64,000 bases of DNA from Solimonas sp. K1W22B-7 (GTDB taxonomy: Bacteria > Pseudomonadota > Gammaproteobacteria > Nevskiales > Nevskiaceae). Under the pieces are notes generated by a model, which was given only the letters and a program-made list of their open reading frames with translations, did no database searches and was not told the origin of the DNA. Positions within the stretch are counted from its first letter, which is position 1, and each line of letters starts with the position of its first letter. Made by a program: the position numbers and the translations under genes. Of this stretch, positions 1-9,826 are shown piece by piece. The stretch covers positions 2,294,001-2,358,000 of the forward strand of contig NZ_CP031704.1 of NCBI RefSeq assembly GCF_003428335.1. The letters run 5' to 3'.

Positions 1-1
1 G

Positions 2-85
2 GCGCGCTCGCGCGTGATCACGCAGATTCTCGACGAGCAGGCCACCGGCCTGCTGGCCGAGCGCCTGGAGAAGGCGCGTGCTTGA
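2..85 (+). CDS. 3' end of a TtpC-like MotA/TolQ/ExbB protein (partial)
   Basis: An open frame enters from the left edge and stops with TGA at 83-85, giving 27 C-terminal residues ending LLAERLEKARA. The charged ending with an ILDEQ-type motif resembles the C-terminus of the large MotA/TolQ/ExbB proteins (TtpC) that precede exbB2 in Vibrio-type TonB2 operons. The next gene starts at GTG 78 and overlaps by 8 bp, so the genes are coupled. The identity rests mainly on context: exbB2, exbD2, tonB2 and a TPR gene follow in the usual TtpC operon order. The membrane domain is outside the window. Confidence 0.6.
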   Translation, partial: ARSRVITQILDEQATGLLAERLEKARA

Positions 86-614
86 GCAGTTCTGGTACGG
101 ACTGCTGGCGCCCTTCGAATCGATTGACACGTTCGTCGAGTCAGGCGGTTGGGTCCTCCCCTGGATCTTCATCGCCGGCCTGGTGATGTGGACGCTGATC
201 GTCGAGCGCTGGTGGTACCTGCGCTATGCCTACCGCAAGGAGCGCGAGACACTGACGCAGACCTGGAAGGCGCGCCCGGAGCACAAGTCCTGGCATGCGC
301 GGCAGATCCGCCGGATGATGATCTCGCGCATCAACGTGCGCCTGGTCGGCAGCCTGCCGCTGATTCGCGTGATCGTGCCGCTGGCGCCGCTGCTGGGCCT
401 GCTCGGCACGGTCACCGGCATGCTCGAGGTCTTCGACGGCATGTCGGCGCTGGGCTATGCCGATGCACGCACCATGTCCGACGGCGTCTCCCACGCCATG
501 GTCGCGACGCTGGCCGGCCTGGCCGTGAGCCTGAGCGGCATCTTCTTCGTCGGGCGGTTCCAGACCCTGAGCATGGTCGAAACGGAACTGTTCGCCGACG
601 CCCTGGAGTACTAA
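78..614 (+). CDS. exbB: ExbB2-type proton channel subunit (MotA/TolQ/ExbB family)
   Basis: This 178-aa inner-membrane protein should form, with ExbD, the proton-driven motor that energises TonB. Three membrane spans are visible: about 24-44, 92-114 and 141-159. The second and third carry the family signature (PLAPLLGLLGTVTGM, then a span starting MVATLAGLAV). The short length fits ExbB2 of TonB2 systems rather than the longer E. coli ExbB. The start is GTG at 78, overlapping the upstream gene. Unlike most exbB-exbD pairs, it is separated from exbD by 136 bp holding a long palindrome whose left arm begins inside this gene's TAA stop. Confidence 0.9.
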   Translation: MLEQFWYGLLAPFESIDTFVESGGWVLPWIFIAGLVMWTLIVERWWYLRYAYRKERETLTQTWKARPEHKSWHARQIRRMMISRINVRLVGSLPLIRVIVPLAPLLGLLGTVTGMLEVFDGMSALGYADARTMSDGVSHAMVATLAGLAVSLSGIFFVGRFQTLSMVETELFADALEY

Positions 615-736
615 AGATGCGAATAAACCTAAACGCAGGCTCGGTGTCTTGGCGTCTCCGGTGCTCGCCGTACTTCAGTACGTCTCCGCTCCTTGCCGCA
701 ACCTCGGGCCGCTCGCTACGGTTTCTTCGCATCTTT
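612..736. repeat. Long palindromic element between exbB and exbD
   Basis: Outer arms at 613-629 (AAAGATGCGAATAAACC) and 720-736 pair at 16 of 17 positions. The centre holds a small hairpin, CGTAC-TTCA-GTACG, near 669-682. The left arm starts inside the exbB stop codon. Core words TGCTCGCC (662-669) and CCTTGCC (691-697) recur in the element at 63899-63995. On a transcript it would fold into a 124-nt hairpin between two genes whose products work as a complex, so it may tune the ExbB:ExbD ratio, or be a selfish repeat. Confidence 0.75.
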
Positions 737-750
737 GAAGGGACGCGAGC

Positions 751-1161
751 ATGAGGTTCAGCCGCCATACCCAGCCCGCCGAGGACAGCCATGGCATCGA
801 CCTGGCGCCGATGCTCGACTTCGTCCTGAACCTGTTGATCTTCTTCATCATCACCAACACCTTCGTGACCGAGGCCGGCATCCACATCAACCGGCCGACG
901 GCGCAGACCGCGGTGCGCGAGGAACGCAACAACATCATCGTGGCGATCTCGCCCAAGGGCGAGGTGTGGATCGACAAGCAGCGCGTCGACATCCGCACGC
1001 TGCGCGCCGTGATCGGCCGCATGCGCGCCGCCAACCCGCAGGCCGGCGTCATCATCCAGGCCGACAAGGATGCCCGCGCCGGCCTGATGGTGGAGGCGAT
1101 GGACCAGGCGCGCCTGGCCGGGGTGAAGGACGTTTCCGTCGCGGCGCAGCCGATGCGCTGA
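751..1161 (+). CDS. exbD: ExbD2-type proton channel subunit (ExbD/TolR family)
   Basis: This 136-aa protein has a short cytoplasmic N-terminus, one membrane span at about 22-40 and a periplasmic domain. It is the partner of ExbB in the TonB motor. The membrane-start motif LAPMLDFVLNLLIFF places Asp23 where the essential proton-carrying aspartate of ExbD lies. The periplasmic part has the expected ExbD/TolR pattern (ISPKGEVWIDKQRV, then an IIQADKDA strand). The ATG at 751 follows the palindromic element by 14 bp. tonB follows after 10 bp. Confidence 0.92.
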   Translation: MRFSRHTQPAEDSHGIDLAPMLDFVLNLLIFFIITNTFVTEAGIHINRPTAQTAVREERNNIIVAISPKGEVWIDKQRVDIRTLRAVIGRMRAANPQAGVIIQADKDARAGLMVEAMDQARLAGVKDVSVAAQPMR

Positions 1162-1171
1162 GAACGAACGC

Positions 1172-1885
1172 ATGCGCCTTCCCGCCTCGTTGCTGCTGGG
1201 TCTGCTGATCGTGCTCGGCCTGTTCTGGCTGATGCAGTGGATGATCCAGCCCTCCGATCACGCTCCCGCTCCCTCGCAGGTCATCGAGTCGGTGGAGATG
1301 GTCGAGGTCGTGCCCGATGAAGCTTCGCCGGAGGAGGCCGCTGCGGCCGCTGCCGACGAGCCACCACCGCCGCCCTCGGCCCCGCCTTCGCTGGCGCGGC
1401 CGGACCTGCCGACGATGAGCCTGCCGGCCAGCGCGCCGGTGGATGCGGGGCCGATCAAGATTCCGGCGATCAACACCTCCAGCCTCGGGCTCGGCGGTTC
1501 CAGCCTCAACGGCAGCGGCCTGTTCGGCGGTTTCGCCGGGCGCGGCAGCGGCTCCGGCAATGGCAGCGGCGCCGGCGGCGGTTTCGGCAAGGGCGAGGGC
1601 TTCCAGGGCAAGACGCTGGTCCCGCTGTCCACCGCGCGCCCGCAGATGCCGGAGTGGGCCTGCAAGCAGGGCATCCGCGGCTGGGTCGAGGTGGTGTTCA
1701 CGGTGATGCCCAATGGCCGCACCGCGGATGTGAAGCTGATCGACGCCGATCCTCGCGGGGTGTTCGAGGCCGCCGCGATCGAGAGCGTCGGCAACTGGAT
1801 CTACCAGTCCACGGGCAAGGCACGCATGGTGAAACAGCGCGTGCCGATGGACCCCGAAGACTGCATCTACAACTGGCAGCAATGA
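1172..1885 (+). CDS. tonB: TonB2-like energy transducer
   Basis: This 237-aa protein has an N-terminal anchor (about 4-24), an acidic and Pro-rich stretch (40-75), a Gly/Ser-rich linker (105-145) and a C-terminal TonB domain (about 150-237) containing GWVEVVFTVMPNGR and SVGNWIYQ. TonB links the ExbB-ExbD motor to TonB-dependent outer-membrane receptors. The periplasm-spanning segment is glycine-rich rather than the classical long Pro-Lys repeat, which fits the short TonB2 class. Its TGA overlaps the ATG of the next gene, so the TPR-DUF1329 protein is co-translated with it. Confidence 0.9.
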   Translation: MRLPASLLLGLLIVLGLFWLMQWMIQPSDHAPAPSQVIESVEMVEVVPDEASPEEAAAAAADEPPPPPSAPPSLARPDLPTMSLPASAPVDAGPIKIPAINTSSLGLGGSSLNGSGLFGGFAGRGSGSGNGSGAGGGFGKGEGFQGKTLVPLSTARPQMPEWACKQGIRGWVEVVFTVMPNGRTADVKLIDADPRGVFEAAAIESVGNWIYQSTGKARMVKQRVPMDPEDCIYNWQQ

Positions 1886-4422
1886 TGAGAGTTCGACTTC
1901 TCATCCTCGCGACCCTGCTGATGGTTGGCGCCGCTCGTGCCGACCAGTACCGCAGCGAGGTCAAGGAACTCGACAGCGTGCCGCAGCAGGCGCCGCAGAA
2001 GAGCACGCAGCAGCAGCTGCAGGTCACCACCGATCCCTATGCCAAGGCCTTGCTGCTGCGCGAGCTGGCGGCGCAGGCGGTGGCGAAGAAGGACTACGCG
2101 CAGGCCTCCAGGTACCTGGAGCAGGCACTGGCGCAGAAGTCCATCTCGGGCATCGCTGCCGAACAGATGCGGCGCGACCTGTCGCAGCTGTATCTGGCCG
2201 GCGGCGACTTCAAGCGCGTGCTGCCGCAACTCGAGGCGCAGGTGAAGGCCGGCAATGCCGCGCCCGAGACGCTGGTGGCGCTGGGCGCTGCCTACGCCGA
2301 GCAGAAGCGCTACCGCGAGGCGGTGCCGCTGCTGCAGAAGGGCCTGGCGGGCGTGAAGAATCCCGATCCGAGCTGGCAGCGCGCGCTGGTCGCGGCGCTG
2401 TTCGGGGCAGGGCAGGAGAAGGAGGCATTGCCGTTGCTGGAGGCGCTGCTCAAGCGTGACCCGAGCCAGCGCGAGGACTGGCTGCGGCTGGCGGCACTGA
2501 CGATCAGGCACGGCAGCAAGGAACGCGCGCAGGCGGTGATGGAGATCGCCAACCGCATGGGCTTCCTGGAAAAGGCCGAGGACCGCCTGCGCCTGGTGCA
2601 GCTCACCGCCCAGGTCGGCGCGCCGTTCGAGGCGGGGTCGCTGCTGCAGTCCTGGATGAAGAAGGGCCTGCTCAAGCCCGACGCCGCCAACTGGAAGCTG
2701 CTGGGCGGCCTGTGGATCGCGGCACGCGAGGCGACGCCGGCGATCGCCGCGCTGGAAGAAGCGCTGAAGCAGCAGCCCGATGCGGCGATGTACCGCCAGC
2801 TCGGCCAGCTGCGCCTGGACCGCGAGGAGTACGCCGGGGCGGCGGATGCGCTGTACAAGGCCGTGCAGCGCGGCGGCAAGGACGGCAACACCCTGCTGGC
2901 GCTGGGCATGGCGCGCTACCAGCAGGCCGACGTCGATGGCGCCCTGGTGGCGTTCCGCGATGCGGCACAGTTCGCCGCGGCCAAGAAGCTGGCGGCGGAA
3001 TGGGTGCGCTACCTCGAATCGGGCCAGGCCCGCGAACAGGCCCTGGCCGCGGCGGCGCAGCGGCGCCAGCGCGGCGACGGCGGCTTCCAGCTCAGCGGCC
3101 GCATGAGCGGCGAGGGCTTCAGGCTGTCGGCCGGACAGGAGGCCAGTGTCACGCTGGCCGAGACCGGCGGCGATCCCTACACCCCGATCGGCGCCGACCG
3201 GCCGGGCAGCGGCGACGGTACGATCCCGGCCTGGACCGGCGGCCTGTCGCGCGGCGGTACACCGGGCCAGCGCCTGGCCGATCCCTATGCCGCCGACAAG
3301 CCGCTGTTCACGATCACCGGTGCCAACGTCGCGCAGTACCGCAACCGCCTGACGCCGAGCCACCAGGCCCTGCTGGCGCGCTATTCCACCTACAGGATTC
3401 CGGTGTACCCGACGCGCCGCAGCGTCGCCTACCCGCAGGCGATCTACGACGCCACCAAGGCCAACGTCGGCAAGGCCAAGCTGCTGGGGTCCGATGCGCT
3501 GGAGGGCGCGCGCCTGGGTTTCCCGTTCCCGCGGCCGCAGTCCGGCGTGGAGGTGATGTGGAATCACCGCACGCGCTATCGCAGCGACGCGGTGGACCTG
3601 CAGTCGACCCAGGCGGTGGTGCAGGCCGACGGCAGGATCCAGCAGCCGCTCAAGCAGATGGAGCGCGTGTCGTTCCGCTATGGCAACGTCCGCTCGCCGT
3701 CCGACCTGTCGAAAAGCAACATCCTGCTGTACTACCTCACCTGGTTCGGCCGTTCGCGCAACGACACCGATTTCCTGGTGCTGGTGCACGAGACCGCGAA
3801 TTCCGAGAAGGACTCGCGCGACATCTGGGTGCTGCCGCCGAAGATCAACAAGATGTTCCGCATTCCGCCGGTGGGCTACGACCAGCCGTTCCCGGGTGCC
3901 GACGGCCTGATGTTCGTCGACATGATGGACATGTACAACGGCGCCTTCGACCGCTACGTCTGGAAGCTCACCGGCAAGCGCGAGATCTACGTCCCGTACA
4001 ACGACTACCGCCTGCTCGACGGCCAGACCGCCATGGCCGACCTGCTGCGCCCCGGCCACCCGCGCCAGGACCGCATGCGCTACGAACTGCACCGCGTCTG
4101 GGTGATCGAGGCGGTGGAGCGGCAGGGCAAGCGCCACTCCTTCGGCAAGCGCGTGTTCTACGTCGACGAGGACAGCTGGAACGTGGTGCTGGTGGAGAAC
4201 TACGACCGCGAAGGCAAGCCCTGGCGCTTCCAGGAGGGCCACCTGCTGGCCTTCTACGACGCGCAGTTCGCCAACACTGCCCCGGTGTTCATCTTCGACC
4301 TGAAGGACGGCCGCTACTTCGCCAACCGCCTCAACGACCGCGACCCGGCGCCGCAGTACGGACTGACGATGCGGGACTCGGAGTTCCTGCCGGCCGCGGT
4401 CAAGGCCAAGTACGGTCGCTAG
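1882..4422 (+). CDS. TPR-DUF1329 fusion protein, last gene of the TonB2 operon
   Basis: This 846-aa exported protein has a signal peptide ending near ARA (residues 1-20 or so). Residues 50-400 carry tetratricopeptide-like helices, with repeated patterns such as ALGAAYAEQKRYREAVPLLQ. From about residue 425 to the end lies a complete DUF1329 domain with GDGTIPAWTGG, YELHRVWV, FYVDEDSW and FQEGHLL. In Vibrio-type TonB2 operons this position is held by a TPR protein alone; here it is joined in one frame to DUF1329. The stand-alone paralogue at 6574 shares the same motifs. DUF1329 has been related to the LolA/LolB-like lipoprotein or lipid carrier fold, so a periplasmic or outer-membrane lipid role is plausible. 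The start is ATG 1882 (ATGATG), overlapping tonB. Confidence 0.85.
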   Translation: MMRVRLLILATLLMVGAARADQYRSEVKELDSVPQQAPQKSTQQQLQVTTDPYAKALLLRELAAQAVAKKDYAQASRYLEQALAQKSISGIAAEQMRRDLSQLYLAGGDFKRVLPQLEAQVKAGNAAPETLVALGAAYAEQKRYREAVPLLQKGLAGVKNPDPSWQRALVAALFGAGQEKEALPLLEALLKRDPSQREDWLRLAALTIRHGSKERAQAVMEIANRMGFLEKAEDRLRLVQLTAQVGAPFEAGSLLQSWMKKGLLKPDAANWKLLGGLWIAAREATPAIAALEEALKQQPDAAMYRQLGQLRLDREEYAGAADALYKAVQRGGKDGNTLLALGMARYQQADVDGALVAFRDAAQFAAAKKLAAEWVRYLESGQAREQALAAAAQRRQRGDGGFQLSGRMSGEGFRLSAGQEASVTLAETGGDPYTPIGADRPGSGDGTIPAWTGGLSRGGTPGQRLADPYAADKPLFTITGANVAQYRNRLTPSHQALLARYSTYRIPVYPTRRSVAYPQAIYDATKANVGKAKLLGSDALEGARLGFPFPRPQSGVEVMWNHRTRYRSDAVDLQSTQAVVQADGRIQQPLKQMERVSFRYGNVRSPSDLSKSNILLYYLTWFGRSRNDTDFLVLVHETANSEKDSRDIWVLPPKINKMFRIPPVGYDQPFPGADGLMFVDMMDMYNGAFDRYVWKLTGKREIYVPYNDYRLLDGQTAMADLLRPGHPRQDRMRYELHRVWVIEAVERQGKRHSFGKRVFYVDEDSWNVVLVENYDREGKPWRFQEGHLLAFYDAQFANTAPVFIFDLKDGRYFANRLNDRDPAPQYGLTMRDSEFLPAAVKAKYGR

Positions 4423-4887: not shown

Positions 4888-6273
4888 ATGGCTGAAGACA
4901 GGAAAGGCGGAAAGGGTAGCATTTCTTCCCTGAAAACCCGCCCGCTGGAACGCAACTTTGCGCTGACCATGCTGGGTCTGGGCGCCGGCAGCAAGATCGT
5001 GGCCCATTCGGTCGCCAACATGTTCCGCGACGAGGCCGCGCGCGACTCTGCCGATCGCGCTTTCTACAAGCGCCAGGCGCAGGTGCTGGCCGACGAGCTG
5101 GGCAATCTCAAGGGCTCGGTGATGAAGGCCGGGCAGATGCTGTCGCTCTACGGCCAGTACTTCCTGCCGGAAGAGGCGGTGACGGTGCTGTCCAGCCTGC
5201 AGGACGACACCGCGCCGGTGGACTGGGAGCTGGTGCTGCCGGTGCTGGAGCGCGGCATCGGCCGCGAGCGCCTGCGCGAGCTGGAGGTGGACCACCGCCC
5301 GCTGGCGGCGGCCTCGCTGGGCCAGGCGCACCGGGCGCGGCGCAAGCGCGACGGCCAGGAGCTGGTGATCAAGATCCAGTACCCGGGCGTGGCCGACGCC
5401 ATCGAAAGTGACATCCGTACCCTGTCGCGGCTGCTGATGATGACGCGGCTGGCGCCCAAGGGACTGGACCTGGAGCCGGTGTTCAACGAGGTGCGCGAAA
5501 TGCTGCACCGCGAGGTGGATTACGAAACCGAGCGCCATTTCACCCAGACCTTCGCCGAAAAACTCGCAGACGACCCGCGCTTCGTGGTGCCGCGCGTCTT
5601 CGGCGAGTACAGCAGCGACCGTGTGCTGACCACCAGCTTCGAGCATGGACACCATGTCCGCGACGCCGCGGTGCAGGAGCTGTCGCAGGAGCGTCGCAAT
5701 GGCCTGTCGCGGGCCTTCCTGGAGCTGTTCCTGAAGGAGTTCTTCCGCTGGCACATGGTGCAGTCCGACCCGCATTTCGGGAACTACCGCATCCGCCCGG
5801 GCGCGGACGGCCAGGACCGCATCGTGCTGATCGACTTCGGCGCCACCCGCGTGTTCGGGCGCGGCTTCGTCGAGAGCTATGCCGACATCGTGCGCGGCGG
5901 CATCGAGCGCGACAGCGCCACGGTGCTGCGCGGCGGCATCGACATCGGCCTGATGAAGCCGGGGTTCCCCAAGTCGGTGCTGGAGACCTTCGTCAAGCTC
6001 TGCGAGACCATCGTCGAACCCTTCGGCGACGCCGACCGCATGCCCGCGCATCTGCGCAACGAGCGCGGCGAGTACCTCTGGGGCAAGAGCGACCTGCTGC
6101 TGCGTGCCGGGCGCATGGCGGCTTCCAACGCCCTGTCGGTGCATTTCAAGGTGCCGCCTCGGGAGATCGTGTTCCTGCACCGCCGCCTGGCCGGTGTCTT
6201 CATCATGCTGGCGACCCTGCACGGCGAACTCAACGCCCGCGACATGCTGCTGGAGTACATCAGGGAGGGCTGA
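4888..6273 (+). CDS. ABC1/AarF/UbiB-family atypical kinase
   Basis: This 461-aa soluble protein is of the protein-kinase-like ABC1 family (UbiB/COQ8 relatives). Visible motifs are the KxGQ motif MKAGQ (80-83), the Ala-rich loop AAASLGQAH (near 140-150), the strand VIKIQYPG, QSDPHFGN (292-299; catalytic-loop equivalent) and LIDFG (314-318; metal-binding aspartate D316). UbiB proper ends in two membrane spans, which this protein lacks, so it is a soluble ABC1 member and not obviously the ubiquinone UbiB. Members bind ATP and act in isoprenoid or lipid metabolism; the substrate here is unknown. Divergent from DUF6918. Confidence 0.85.
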   Translation: MAEDRKGGKGSISSLKTRPLERNFALTMLGLGAGSKIVAHSVANMFRDEAARDSADRAFYKRQAQVLADELGNLKGSVMKAGQMLSLYGQYFLPEEAVTVLSSLQDDTAPVDWELVLPVLERGIGRERLRELEVDHRPLAAASLGQAHRARRKRDGQELVIKIQYPGVADAIESDIRTLSRLLMMTRLAPKGLDLEPVFNEVREMLHREVDYETERHFTQTFAEKLADDPRFVVPRVFGEYSSDRVLTTSFEHGHHVRDAAVQELSQERRNGLSRAFLELFLKEFFRWHMVQSDPHFGNYRIRPGADGQDRIVLIDFGATRVFGRGFVESYADIVRGGIERDSATVLRGGIDIGLMKPGFPKSVLETFVKLCETIVEPFGDADRMPAHLRNERGEYLWGKSDLLLRAGRMAASNALSVHFKVPPREIVFLHRRLAGVFIMLATLHGELNARDMLLEYIREG

Positions 6274-6573
6274 GGCCGGCGGGCGGGCTGGCCAGGGCAT
6301 GGGCTGCGGGGCAGGGGCCTTGCGGTTCGCCTGGCGCCGCCATCCGAGCCATTTCGTGCCGTCCGGCTGCCCGGCAGGAGCCGGCGCCGCCCCTTGTTCA
6401 GGCCGCATTCAGTCCCCTGTTGCAGTGCGATGAAATCCCTGGTGGTTTCGCCGGAAACTTGTTGGCGCCTATGGGGATTTGCGCTAGCATCCTTTGCGCT
6501 CGGTGCCCCTGGGCCGAAGTTCTCCGACAGGTGGGCAACCATCCGAATAACCAAAGACGAGGAGATGTTCCCG
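6274..6573. other. 300-bp non-coding interval before the DUF1329 gene
   Basis: No convincing gene is seen. The last 100 bp has lower GC than its surroundings and should hold the promoter of the DUF1329 gene. A TTGTTG hexamer near 6459 and a TAGCAT near 6484 are too far apart for a standard promoter. A GAGGAG ribosome-binding sequence lies at 6559-6564, about 9 nt before ATG 6574. Confidence 0.5.
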
Positions 6574-7926
6574 ATGAAAAAAGTCTTAGTAACAATCCTT
6601 GGCGCCGCAGCGCTGTGCCTTACGGCACAGGCCGGAGCCAAGGTCCCCGCAGCGGAGGCGGCCAAGCTCGGCGCCGAACTGACGCCGGTGGGCGCCGAAA
6701 AGGCCGGCAACGCCGACAAGTCGATCGGTGCCTGGGAGCCCCGCGCTCGCGAGGGCGCGCTGAAGGGCGACTGGCCGCATGACGACAAGATCGATGGCGA
6801 AAAGCCGATCTACACGATCACCAAGGCCAACATGGCGCAGTACGCCGCCAAGCTGTCCGAGGGCCACAAGAAGCTGCTGTCGAGCTACGACAGCTACAAG
6901 ATGAACGTGTACCCGTCGCACCGCACTGTTGGCTGGCCGGACGAGATCTACGCCGCCACCAAGGCCAATGCCGCCAGCTGCGAACTGGTCAACACCGAAA
7001 TCCTCAACGGCTGCAAGCTCGGCTTCCCCTTCCCGATTCCGAAGTCCGGCGCCGAGCCGATCTGGAACCACAAGCTGAAGTGGCGCGGTGAGTCGGTCAC
7101 CCGCTACAACAACCAGATGATCGTGCAGCCCAATGGCCAGTTCCAGCTGACCAAGATCATCGAGGACGTCACCTTCGGCTACGCCTCCATGAAGAACCCG
7201 ACCGAGCTCAAGCCGGGCCAGGGCGAGTTCCTCAAGTACCTGTCGAAGACCGTCGCTCCGCCGCGCCTGGCCGGCACCTTCATTCTCGTGCACGAGAAGA
7301 TGGGTACCGGTGCCGAAGGCCGCGCCGCCTGGCTCTACTCGCCGGGCCTCAAGCGTATCCGCCGCGCCCCGACGGTCTGCTGCGACAACCCGTACGAAGG
7401 CACCGACGGTCACCAGTTCTACGACCAGGTCGACATGTTCAACGGCGCCCTGGAGCGCTACAACTGGAAGCTGGTGGGCAAGAAGGAGATGTACATCGCG
7501 TACAACTCCAACAAGATCGCCGGCAACAAGGTCAAGTACAAGGACCTGGCCAAGCCCAAGCACCTGAACCAGGATCTGCCGCGCTACGAGCTGCACCGCG
7601 TCTGGGTGGTCGAGGCCGACATCAAGCCGGGCACCAGCCACACCTTCAAGAAGCGTCGCTTCTATCTCGACGAGGATGGCTGGACCGTCGGCATGGTTGA
7701 CGACTACGACAACCGCGACCAGCTGTACCAGTTCCAGGAAGGCCACATCATCAGTGCGCCGAACATCATGGCCGCGACGACCGTGCCGGAAGTGATTTAT
7801 CACTTCACCTCGGGCCGTTACTTCATCACCGCGGCCTGGAACGAAGACAAGCCGATCGACGCCACGGCCAGCTTCAACGCCGACTACTTCAGCGCGGCCT
7901 CCGTGCAGAAGATGACGACGAAGTAA
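6574..7926 (+). CDS. DUF1329 family exported protein
   Basis: This 450-aa protein has a clear signal peptide (MKKVLVTILGAAALCLTAQA). The DUF1329 domain covers the rest: LTPVGAEKAGN near the mature start, then YELHRVWVVEAD, RRFYLDEDGWTVG and FQEGHII. It is a paralogue of the C-terminal half of the TPR-DUF1329 fusion 2 kb upstream. DUF1329 proteins are common in gammaproteobacteria, often beside DUF1302 and RND-type genes, and are linked by fold to outer-membrane lipoprotein or lipid trafficking. ATG 6574 is preferred over ATG 6565 because GAGGAG is correctly spaced for the former. A strong terminator follows at once. Confidence 0.88.
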   Translation: MKKVLVTILGAAALCLTAQAGAKVPAAEAAKLGAELTPVGAEKAGNADKSIGAWEPRAREGALKGDWPHDDKIDGEKPIYTITKANMAQYAAKLSEGHKKLLSSYDSYKMNVYPSHRTVGWPDEIYAATKANAASCELVNTEILNGCKLGFPFPIPKSGAEPIWNHKLKWRGESVTRYNNQMIVQPNGQFQLTKIIEDVTFGYASMKNPTELKPGQGEFLKYLSKTVAPPRLAGTFILVHEKMGTGAEGRAAWLYSPGLKRIRRAPTVCCDNPYEGTDGHQFYDQVDMFNGALERYNWKLVGKKEMYIAYNSNKIAGNKVKYKDLAKPKHLNQDLPRYELHRVWVVEADIKPGTSHTFKKRRFYLDEDGWTVGMVDDYDNRDQLYQFQEGHIISAPNIMAATTVPEVIYHFTSGRYFITAAWNEDKPIDATASFNADYFSAASVQKMTTK

Positions 7927-7954
7927 GCCGTCAGCAGTACCAGAGGCAAGGGAA

Positions 7955-7983
7955 GGCCGCCGGGGTATGCCCCGGCGGCCTTT
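7955..7983 (+). terminator. Rho-independent terminator after DUF1329
   Basis: A perfect 11-bp stem (GGCCGCCGGGG, 7955-7965, with its complement at 7970-7980) has a TATG loop and is followed by TTT. It separates the DUF1329 gene from the DUF2505 gene. Confidence 0.85.
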
Positions 7984-8029
7984 CTCGATAATGAGGGGAC
8001 GGCCCAAGGCCGCAGGGGATGGAAACCAG

Positions 8030-8518
8030 ATGAAATACGACGAGAAGCTCGACTACGACAAGCCGGTCGACACGGTGCTGCGCATGTATACCGACCGCAG
8101 CTACTTCGAACGCAAGTACAAGGACTCCGGTGCCTGGGATGTCGAGGTGCTGGAGCACGAGAAGAGCGGCAAGCACTTCCGCATCAAGTGCCGCTTCAAC
8201 ATGAAGTCCGACGTGCCGTTGCCGGACTTCGCCAGGAAGTTCATCGGCGAGTCGGTCACCGTGGTGCAGCAGGACGCCTGGGACCTGGACAAGCTGACCG
8301 GCCGCATCGATACCGAGATCAAGGGCGCCCCGGTGAAGGTCTTCACCGAGATGCAGCTCAAGCCCGAGGGGCAAGGCTGCGCCAATCACCTGCGCTGGAA
8401 CGTCAACTGCGGTATCCCGCTGATCGGCGGCAAGCTGGAGAAGGTGCTGGCCGAGGACCTGCAGGCCAAGTCGCGCACCGACTACCAGTCCAGCATCAAG
8501 ATCCTGCGCGACTACTGA
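8030..8518 (+). CDS. DUF2505 family protein
   Basis: This 162-aa soluble protein begins MKYDEKLDYDKPVDTVLRMY. The layout is that of DUF2505, a START/SRPBCC-like fold: a helix with YTDRSYFERK, a strand pattern VEVLEHEKSGKHFRI, LPDFARKFIG, VVQQDAWDLD, and a final GIPLIGGKLEKVLAEDL before the long C-terminal helix. The fold suggests binding of a hydrophobic ligand, but no ligand is known. The DUF2970 membrane protein gene starts 2 bp after its stop, so they are probably co-transcribed. Confidence 0.75.
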   Translation: MKYDEKLDYDKPVDTVLRMYTDRSYFERKYKDSGAWDVEVLEHEKSGKHFRIKCRFNMKSDVPLPDFARKFIGESVTVVQQDAWDLDKLTGRIDTEIKGAPVKVFTEMQLKPEGQGCANHLRWNVNCGIPLIGGKLEKVLAEDLQAKSRTDYQSSIKILRDY

Positions 8519-9762: not shown

Positions 9763-9826
9763 GTGGGAGCGGCTTCAGCCGCGATGGGAGCTTGAAGCGC
9801 CCCATCGCGGCTGAAGCCGCTCCCAC
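9763..9826. repeat. REP-like perfect inverted repeat between convergent genes
   Basis: Two 26-bp arms (9763-9788 and 9801-9826) are perfect reverse complements around a 12-bp loop. Each begins GTGGGAGCGGCTTCAGCCGC, a sequence typical of REP-type repeats in Pseudomonas and Xanthomonadales. It lies between the SURF1-like gene (plus) and mutS (minus), where a doublet of REPs can end transcription from both sides. Confidence 0.9.

Follow-up and report, generated by a model that had tools for sequence, protein, structure and literature searches.

In Solimonas sp. K1W22B-7, the last gene of a TonB2-type operon encodes a tetratricopeptide-repeat (TPR) protein that is continued by a complete DUF1329 domain, for which a fold resembling that of the lipoprotein carrier LolA is predicted. 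The gene occupies positions 1882-4422 (+ strand) of the window, by which we mean the whole 64,000-nucleotide stretch of contig NZ_CP031704.1 analysed here; its TPR part is assigned to TtpD from operon position and TPR architecture. The fusion bears on how hydrophobic molecules are transported across the periplasm and on what powers this transport, as a natural experiment in which a subunit of an energiser driven by the proton-motive force has been joined to a LolA-type carrier fold. The union of TtpD with a domain resembling lipid carriers, and the parallel change in the TonB of the operon, suggest a cell-envelope energy machine that may have been refitted to move greasy molecules.

The TPR plus DUF1329 architecture of the protein is secure. 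The gene is one uninterrupted reading frame of 846 amino acids, in which Pfam finds TPR repeats in the first half (TPR_14 at residues 166-206) and PF07044 (DUF1329) at residues 477-838. The latter match (E=4e-108) is full-length, spanning positions 1-365 of the 368 of the profile, in agreement with the original prediction, made from the DNA alone, that a TPR protein is continued in frame by a complete DUF1329. Alignments with stand-alone DUF1329s start mostly at about fusion residue 415-430, and therefore a whole mature DUF1329 protein has been fused, not a fragment. An AlphaFold2 model of the fusion, built with 41 sequences (predicted local distance difference test (pLDDT) 84; predicted template modelling score (pTM) 0.54), consists of a TPR superhelix, a linker and a beta-rich domain. 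The pLDDT falls below 50 in linker segments 395-401 and 410-429, and among 41 aligned fusions both halves are conserved whereas the linker differs in length and sequence. At the N-terminus, a helix is predicted at residues 2-16, and A20 is present in 39 of the 40 aligned rows with letters at this position; inspection disclosed no Cys nearby, hence no LolB-type lipobox or N-terminal lipid anchor. The mature N-terminus carries the motif QYxSE (Q and Y in 40/40 rows with letters, S in 39/40, E in 35/40), in a region, residues 19-30, with a pLDDT below 50. All 15 stand-alone TtpDs compared lack QYxS, and visual inspection did not reveal it at the N-termini of the two TtpDs of the same genome either. 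Because this stretch is predicted to be disordered, the model suggests that it may be a docking peptide.

An assembly error or a frameshift joining two genes could in principle create such a frame. Yet orthologues with both halves in one frame, 38-88% identical and at the same operon position, recur in many independent genomes, and nothing was found in favour of an artefact. We therefore exclude this explanation, whose probability is negligible.

The DUF1329 half of the predicted model was compared with solved structures. Using VIA-align, residues 551-844 matched best LolA3 of Porphyromonas gingivalis (9tp6_A; Z 19.3, root-mean-square deviation (rmsd) 3.1, 236 residues aligned, target 239). 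The solved DUF1329 4z48_A (Z 17.0, rmsd 3.8, 230 residues aligned, target 240) and 3bk5 (Z 16.7) also matched this half. In the predicted structure, the fused domain is thus of the LolA type and has the fold of 4z48, which bears out both that the C-terminal half is a DUF1329 and that this family is tied by fold to lipoprotein carriers; with an artefact excluded as well, neither condition named as refuting the original prediction holds. A sequence search of the PDB with the same half returned nothing significant, the LolA row having E=0.36.

The fusion gene overlaps tonB by 4 nucleotides, and the genes occur in the order typical of TonB2 systems, i.e. DUF3450 (TtpB), TtpC, ExbB, ExbD, TonB and TPR protein (TtpD). 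The setting predicted for the gene was thus correct, and it is general: in fusion loci with at least 6 kb of upstream sequence, TonB, ExbB, TtpC and DUF3450 precede the fusion in 33/33 cases and ExbD in 31/33. What departs from the TonB2 pattern is the last protein, since TtpD is ordinarily a TPR-only protein of about 370-430 residues. That such systems usually end in a stand-alone TPR protein was verified in all of 15 comparison operons (369-428 residues), hand-picked from the TPR-only matches of the class sample described below, 1 from the same order and 14 from elsewhere in the class. None of these 15 loci, which covered 5 to 17 kb with unequal flanks, had a stand-alone DUF1329 beside the stand-alone TtpD, as a pre-fusion intermediate would.

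The TonB encoded next to the fusion is a variant. The P-x-YP motif of TonB has a role in receptor binding, and it was kept in 13/13 TonBs of the hand-picked stand-alone-TtpD operons. It is missing from the TonB of the fusion operon. At the aligned position, ST[AG]RP.[MIF][PS] was found in 42/42 fusion-operon TonBs, but in 0/13 TonBs from stand-alone-TtpD operons and in 0/5 other TonB_C proteins of the same genome (five of its ten TonB_C matches besides the window's TonB were compared); the lone match of a fusion-operon TonB to P.YP falls outside this position. A second difference is a C-terminal tail of the form [DE][CFY]..[NDG][WY], present in 42/42 fusion-operon TonBs and 0/13 others, and predicted as a helix adjoining the last strand. 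The Cys of the first helix (EWAC) and that of the tail were both present in 31/42 proteins and both absent in 11/42, neither occurring alone (0/42), a pattern that fits a disulfide. The TonB fold is nonetheless retained, as the model of the variant superimposed on the TonB of the BtuB:TonB complex 2gsk with Z 10.9 and an rmsd of 1.8 over 81 residues. In the class sample of 369 genomes, the only TonB matches listed that reached residue 236 came from the four fusion-bearing genomes (E 7.5e-158 to 1.4e-39), and the next TonB match had E 6.6e-20. The fusion and the TonB change thus go together across families, one of them outside the order, which suggests that TonB changed in step with the fused TtpD, i.e. 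co-adaptation.

The same genome provides an internal control. It contains two more TonB2 operons (L143 and L146), with a stand-alone TtpD and a TonB that has M-Y-P and no C-terminal tail; the TonB change is therefore tied to the fusion operon and not to the organism. (These two operons are also alike in having two exbD genes in a row.) The presence of all six TonB2 genes in the usual order, the preserved fold of the TonB C-terminal domain and the 23 Plug-domain matches in the genome would be compatible with an ordinary TonB2 system serving iron or other TonB-dependent receptors, in which the decoration of TtpD is lineage-specific and provides fine-tuning without a change of job. Of the five other TonB_C proteins compared, four keep P-x-YP, and the fifth (L147), which has PPQIP, likewise lacks the Tyr. 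We consider this explanation unlikely, since this genome already has two TonB2 operons of the ordinary kind, in which TtpD stands alone and TonB keeps P-x-YP, and since the fusion and the TonB change co-occur across families.

Within the order (85 genomes, 11 candidates scored per genome), a fusion match with E<=1e-140 was found in 59 genomes. Both halves were spanned in 58 of these matches, including one (G048) that starts at residue 95, at a contig end; the remaining one (G040) is truncated by the end of its contig. Carriers amounted to 49/58 genomes in the window's own family (f1), 1/1 in f2, 4/4 in f3, 3/4 in f4, 1/1 in f5 (the contig-cut match) and 1/17 in f6. Fusions with both halves were found in four genomes of the class sample, i.e. 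the Solimonas genome itself, G039 from the same order and two of a single family outside it, f117, and in the Solimonas genome only in the phylum sample (398 genomes), with the two best candidates per genome scored in both samples, so that a fusion ranking behind better stand-alone matches could be missed. In a scan of named species, 50/78 loci spanned both halves (best 80 of 131 relatives), with titles including Solimonas, Fontimonas, Stenotrophobium, Sinimarinibacterium, Hydrocarboniphaga, Panacagrimonas, Stagnimonas, Nevskia, Polycyclovorans, Algiphilus and Abyssibacter. Hydrocarboniphaga and Polycyclovorans are known for hydrocarbon use. Two fusion-bearing records (L170 and L171) are titled Verrucomicrobia and Rhodospirillales, the title of L171 being probably wrong, and one genome (G034) has two full-length fusion genes on different contigs (L087 on C151, L091 on C91). 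A search of plasmids with DUF1329 gave no record covering 80% of the query.

All 59 carriers in the order have at least 3 DUF1329 matches (the fusion possibly being counted) and at least 2 DUF1302 matches. In family f6, the sole carrier has 12 DUF1329 and 9 DUF1302 matches, whereas DUF1329 was found in 0/16 non-carriers and a single DUF1302 in 3/16, a contrast that concerns one lineage and carries no statistical test. This distribution also bears on the possibility that the system maintains the envelope, in which case it would be akin in function to Lol or Tol-Pal, be driven by TonB and move lipoproteins or phospholipids between the membranes. LolA3 as the best structural match of the model, and the retention of the gene in 59/85 genomes, including one of only 2.7 Mb (G031), argue for such a role. 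The absence of the fusion from the 16 f6 genomes without DUF1329 means, however, that it is not essential for the outer membrane in this order, and the fused protein lacks, on inspection, a lipobox or LolB-type anchor; we regard envelope maintenance as distinctly improbable.

To trace the descent of the fused domain we used DUF1329 trees made by a quick method and rooted at the midpoint. In a tree of 120 rows, in which locus L114 was counted as a fusion, 9 long-branch rows and 3 near-duplicates were omitted and 7 of the 30 other DUF1329 matches of the genome were represented, the 41 fused domains formed one clade (support 99 in the Shimodaira-Hasegawa-like approximate likelihood ratio test), beside which stood 44 stand-alone DUF1329s, mostly of the same order (support 93). 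A tree of 144 rows, with the long rows restored and 15 of 18 further loci of the genome added (three gave no match with the queries used), comprised 26 other DUF1329s of this genome, and a branch with support 96 again separated the fusions from all other rows; among the rows added, L266 and L272 are of unusual composition and were possibly translated in a wrong frame. Two changes were needed in a tree of 132 rows in which the contig-cut L114 was counted among the others. As the fused domains form one clade, a single fusion event is likely. The idea that the fused domain is a recent copy of the stand-alone DUF1329 encoded at 6430-7926 was rejected, this neighbour grouping, in the 120-row tree, with the stand-alone DUF1329s beside the fusion clade.

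The identity to the window's protein is higher for the DUF1329 half than for the TPR half in 37/40 relatives, and the fused domain retains 54 of the 77 columns that are near-invariant (at least 95%) in 81 stand-alone DUF1329s, a comparison that omitted rows containing a stop and 11 others, namely the 9 long-branch rows and two from L122. The DUF1329 half is therefore under selection. Four residues, P663, G665, P671 and F689, reach a conservation of at least 98% among the fused domains and are seldom found in other DUF1329s, which indicates that a partner-facing or gate loop has probably been remodelled.

We tentatively favour, with a confidence just short of even, a third, dedicated TonB2 system whose TtpD bears a tethered carrier for a hydrophobic ligand; we infer its ligand, partner, direction and energy coupling. 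From what is known of their families, TtpC, ExbB and ExbD would use the proton-motive force to move TonB, and the TPR half would, judging by operon position and architecture, sit in the TonB complex like Vibrio TtpD. Tethered by its flexible linker, the LolA-like barrel of the DUF1329 half would act as the carrier, taking a hydrophobic ligand at, or delivering it to, an outer-membrane partner opened or pulled by the modified TonB. The ligand might then be handed to a soluble DUF1329, for instance the product of the paralogue 2 kb downstream, and import of hydrophobic carbon compounds would be the likeliest direction and cargo. Re-purposing of a TonB2 system for a hydrophobic substrate appears the most economical reading because an essential subunit has acquired a LolA-type fold, the TonB has changed in step, and the genome retains two further, unmodified TonB2 systems for ordinary receptors. 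The contrast in DUF1329 and DUF1302 counts between the f6 carrier and non-carriers was counted in its favour, as were the growth needs for the stand-alone DUF1329s PP_0766 (Tween 20) and AmeB (monoterpenes) discussed below.

Several observations weigh against such a dedicated carrier system. The low pTM of the model means that the relative orientation of the two halves is not predicted. Of the near-invariant columns of stand-alone DUF1329s, 23/77 are changed in the fused domain, nine of them at residues 625-674, and its partner or ligand may therefore differ from theirs. In a tree of TtpC (matches with more than 280 aligned residues only), the fusion operons do not fall on one side of a branch and two changes are needed, the smallest well-supported set that contains the window's TtpC and extends beyond its genus comprising 20 fusion rows, two paralogues from the same genome and two stand-alone-TtpD rows. 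The fusion was not detected in nine genomes of the order that have DUF1329, six of them 90-94% complete, and because L147 also lacks the Tyr, its loss alone is not unique to fusion operons. As to the outer-membrane partner, no barrel and no TonB-dependent receptor was present among the named recurrent neighbour clusters of the fusion loci (operon genes, ABC1, DUF1329, DUF2505, rhodanese, alpha/beta hydrolase, MutS and, named by eye, an SDR-like protein), and none of the unnamed clusters, on which no Pfam search was run, looked like a barrel; a partner may be encoded elsewhere. Finally, no DUF1302 gene is adjacent to the fusion, the nearest one lying 84 kb from the fused DUF1329 and 80 kb from the downstream paralogue.

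The last point touches on the closest competitor to a carrier function, in which the fused DUF1329 would hold no ligand and would serve as a docking adaptor, recruiting the TonB2 complex to an outer-membrane barrel of the DUF1302 kind, or another barrel, so that TonB would energise a transporter lacking a TonB box of its own. A complex of DUF1329 with DUF1302 has been predicted for PP_0766/PP_0765 (PMC10866462). The Solimonas genome has a very large repertoire of both families, with 33 matches to DUF1302 and 31 to DUF1329, 30 of the latter exceeding the cut-off, and a DUF1302 lies within 5 kb of 20 of the 31 DUF1329 matches; the co-occurrence of both families in every one of the 59 carriers of the order points the same way. 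The fused domain is altered, however, at a run of positions that may be the interface of stand-alone DUF1329s, and the LolA-like fold and most of the family-invariant residues have been retained, which would be needless in a pure adaptor. An adaptor without ligand seems to us rather unlikely, and we retain the tethered carrier as the preferred reading.

A bolder form of the tethered-carrier reading would have TonB/ExbB/ExbD drive the LolA-type carrier directly, so that a lipid or hydrocarbon would cross the periplasm by way of the fused TtpD-DUF1329, powered by the proton-motive force, and TonB would have been re-tooled for the fused subunit instead of TonB-box receptors. We regard this as rather doubtful; if true, it would represent a TonB-powered alternative to the RND-coupled DUF1329 systems (RND, resistance-nodulation-division) of the same genome. 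The original prediction had proposed that TonB energisation is physically joined to a domain resembling lipid carriers, and this connection is real and old; its further suggestion, that the proton-motive force could drive transfer of lipids or hydrophobic substrates through the system, is no more than plausible. Two points that it did not include bear on this suggestion: TtpD was already known to be essential in the TonB2 system of Vibrio vulnificus (PMC6957404), and the TonB partner of the fusion has diverged from ordinary TonB.

Table 1 Features of the fusion operon and its surroundings. Positions are those of the window unless another locus is named.
Feature	Position	Strand	Remarks
DUF3450/ttpB, then ttpC	L009 7978-8733 and 8730-10085, upstream of window		DUF3450 E=1e-67
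3' end of ttpC (MotA/TolQ/ExbB domain)	1-85	+	MotA_ExbB E=1e-25
exbB2	78-614	+	MotA_ExbB E=1e-20
exbD2	751-1161	+	ExbD E=2e-27
tonB with variant C-terminal domain	1172-1885	+	TonB_C E=6e-10, over cut-off
TonB residues 153-160, STARPQMP	1628-1651	+	replaces P-x-YP; aligned position
TonB C-terminal extension PEDCIYNWQQ, residues 228-237	1853-1882	+	shared tail
TtpD::DUF1329 fusion gene	1882-4422	+	846 amino acids; ends the TtpB-TtpC-ExbB-ExbD-TonB operon
Signal peptide	1882-1941	+	signal peptidase I type with AxA preceding residue 21; lipobox Cys absent; sequence inspection
QYRSE motif, residues 22-26, mature N-terminus	1945-1959	+	predicted disordered
TPR superhelix (TtpD part), residues 39-386	1996-3039	+	Pfam TPR repeats, predicted structure
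Linker, residues about 395-429	3064-3168	+	variable in length and sequence; low pLDDT
DUF1329 protein, residues 427-846	3160-4419	+	Pfam match 3310-4395; predicted LolA-like fold 3532-4413
ABC1 (UbiB-like) atypical kinase	4888-6273	+	ABC1 E=2e-53; conserved neighbour
Stand-alone DUF1329 paralogue	6430-7926	+	PF07044 E=2e-130; 2.0 kb downstream of fusion
DUF2505 protein	8030-8518	+	E=4e-31; conserved neighbour

The genes that surround the operon were also compared (Table 1), gene choice in the loci being based on G+C content at third codon positions (GC3) because choice by length is useless at this G+C. The stand-alone paralogue announced 2 kb from the fusion is indeed there. In 37 fusion loci with at least 6.5 kb of downstream sequence, the same-strand neighbours included ABC1 in 25 loci, DUF2505 in 23 loci and, in 18 loci, a DUF1329 that stands alone. 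MutS was found downstream in 7/37 loci, on the opposite strand, and part of the conservation of the downstream neighbours therefore reflects general synteny. The ABC1 kinase-DUF1329-DUF2505 cluster (4888-8518) may constitute a separate functional unit, concerned with lipids or quinones. An inverted repeat of about 64 nucleotides (9763-9826) in the intergenic region that separates the SURF1 gene from mutS is 92% self-complementary and resembles repeated extragenic palindromes.

Within the operon, the gap between exbB and exbD amounts to 136 nucleotides in the window (615-750), versus about 9 in a relative of the same genus (L072). The extra stretch is bounded by the inverted sequences AAAGATGCGAA and TTCGCATCTTT and looks like a small inserted element, of which no second copy was found in the stretches of the same genome that were compared. 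In five loci of families f3 and f117 (L104, L105, L106, L112 and L113), ExbB and TonB are spaced by about 100 nucleotides or less, and no gene for ExbD was detected in between; ExbD may come from elsewhere.

With two ordinary TonB2 systems as an internal control in the same genome and a TonB that co-varies with the fusion, coupling can be tested by deletion of a single domain. The fusion is also a concrete clue to what TtpD, a subunit essential in TonB2 systems, may be placed next to.

Comparison with known systems places the fusion operon closest in gene content to the TonB2 system of Vibrio vulnificus, which has the same genes in the same order and a TPR protein encoded last. This system is reported to consist of six genes, ttpC2 being immediately preceded by ttpB2 and tonB2 being followed by ttpD2; TtpB2 and TtpD2, a TPR protein of 425 residues, are absolutely required for TonB2-mediated siderophore uptake (PMC6957404). 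Where V. vulnificus has ttpB, just upstream of ttpC, the fusion operon has a DUF3450 gene. The window's TPR protein continues into DUF1329, unlike the 425-residue TtpD2, and the TonB of the window's operon lacks P-x-YP and has an extra C-terminal tail. Siderophore uptake has been shown for the Vibrio system only. As judged from operon position and TPR architecture, the fused gene is ttpD with a DUF1329 added.

At one locus of the Solimonas genome (L012), genes for DUF1329, YCF48 and MMPL proteins stand in a row, a set resembling PP_0765/PP_0766/PP_2018/PP_2019 of Pseudomonas putida, in which PP_2018 is presumably a YCF48-type protein. Use of Tween 20 by P. putida is reported, in the same source as the predicted DUF1329-DUF1302 complex, to need PP_0765 (DUF1302), PP_0766 (DUF1329), the periplasmic PP_2018 and the transporter PP_2019 (PMC10866462), and another member of the DUF1329 family, AmeB, is reported to be indispensable when monoterpenes are the growth substrate (PMC6394551). 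Such DUF1302-DUF1329-RND sets (the PP proteins of P. putida and the Ame proteins of Castellaniella) contain the same DUF1329 family as the fusion; the fused domain is, however, associated with TonB/ExbB/ExbD where those sets have an RND pump, lacks a neighbouring DUF1302 gene and differs at 23/77 otherwise near-invariant columns.

With LolA/LolB and with LolA3 of P. gingivalis (9tp6; PMC13103446), residues 553-844 have their predicted fold in common. Compared with LolA/LolB, the fused protein has about 120 extra N-terminal DUF1329 residues and the TPR fusion, and a lipoprotein cargo is not indicated. The variant TonB also resembles in fold (Z 10.4) FusB, a TonB homologue acting in ferredoxin import, whose C-terminal domain has been solved alone and with ferredoxin (7zc8, 9hi3); we know of no TPR or DUF1329 subunit for FusB. 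A literature search retrieved no title or abstract start describing the fusion, with subscription journals and preprints mostly outside its coverage. The component families were already known; what is new here is that they are joined in one protein, that this protein is widespread in an order and that a variant TonB accompanies it. The fusion system is a TonB2-type system, and neither a Lol system nor a member of the DUF1302-DUF1329-RND sets.

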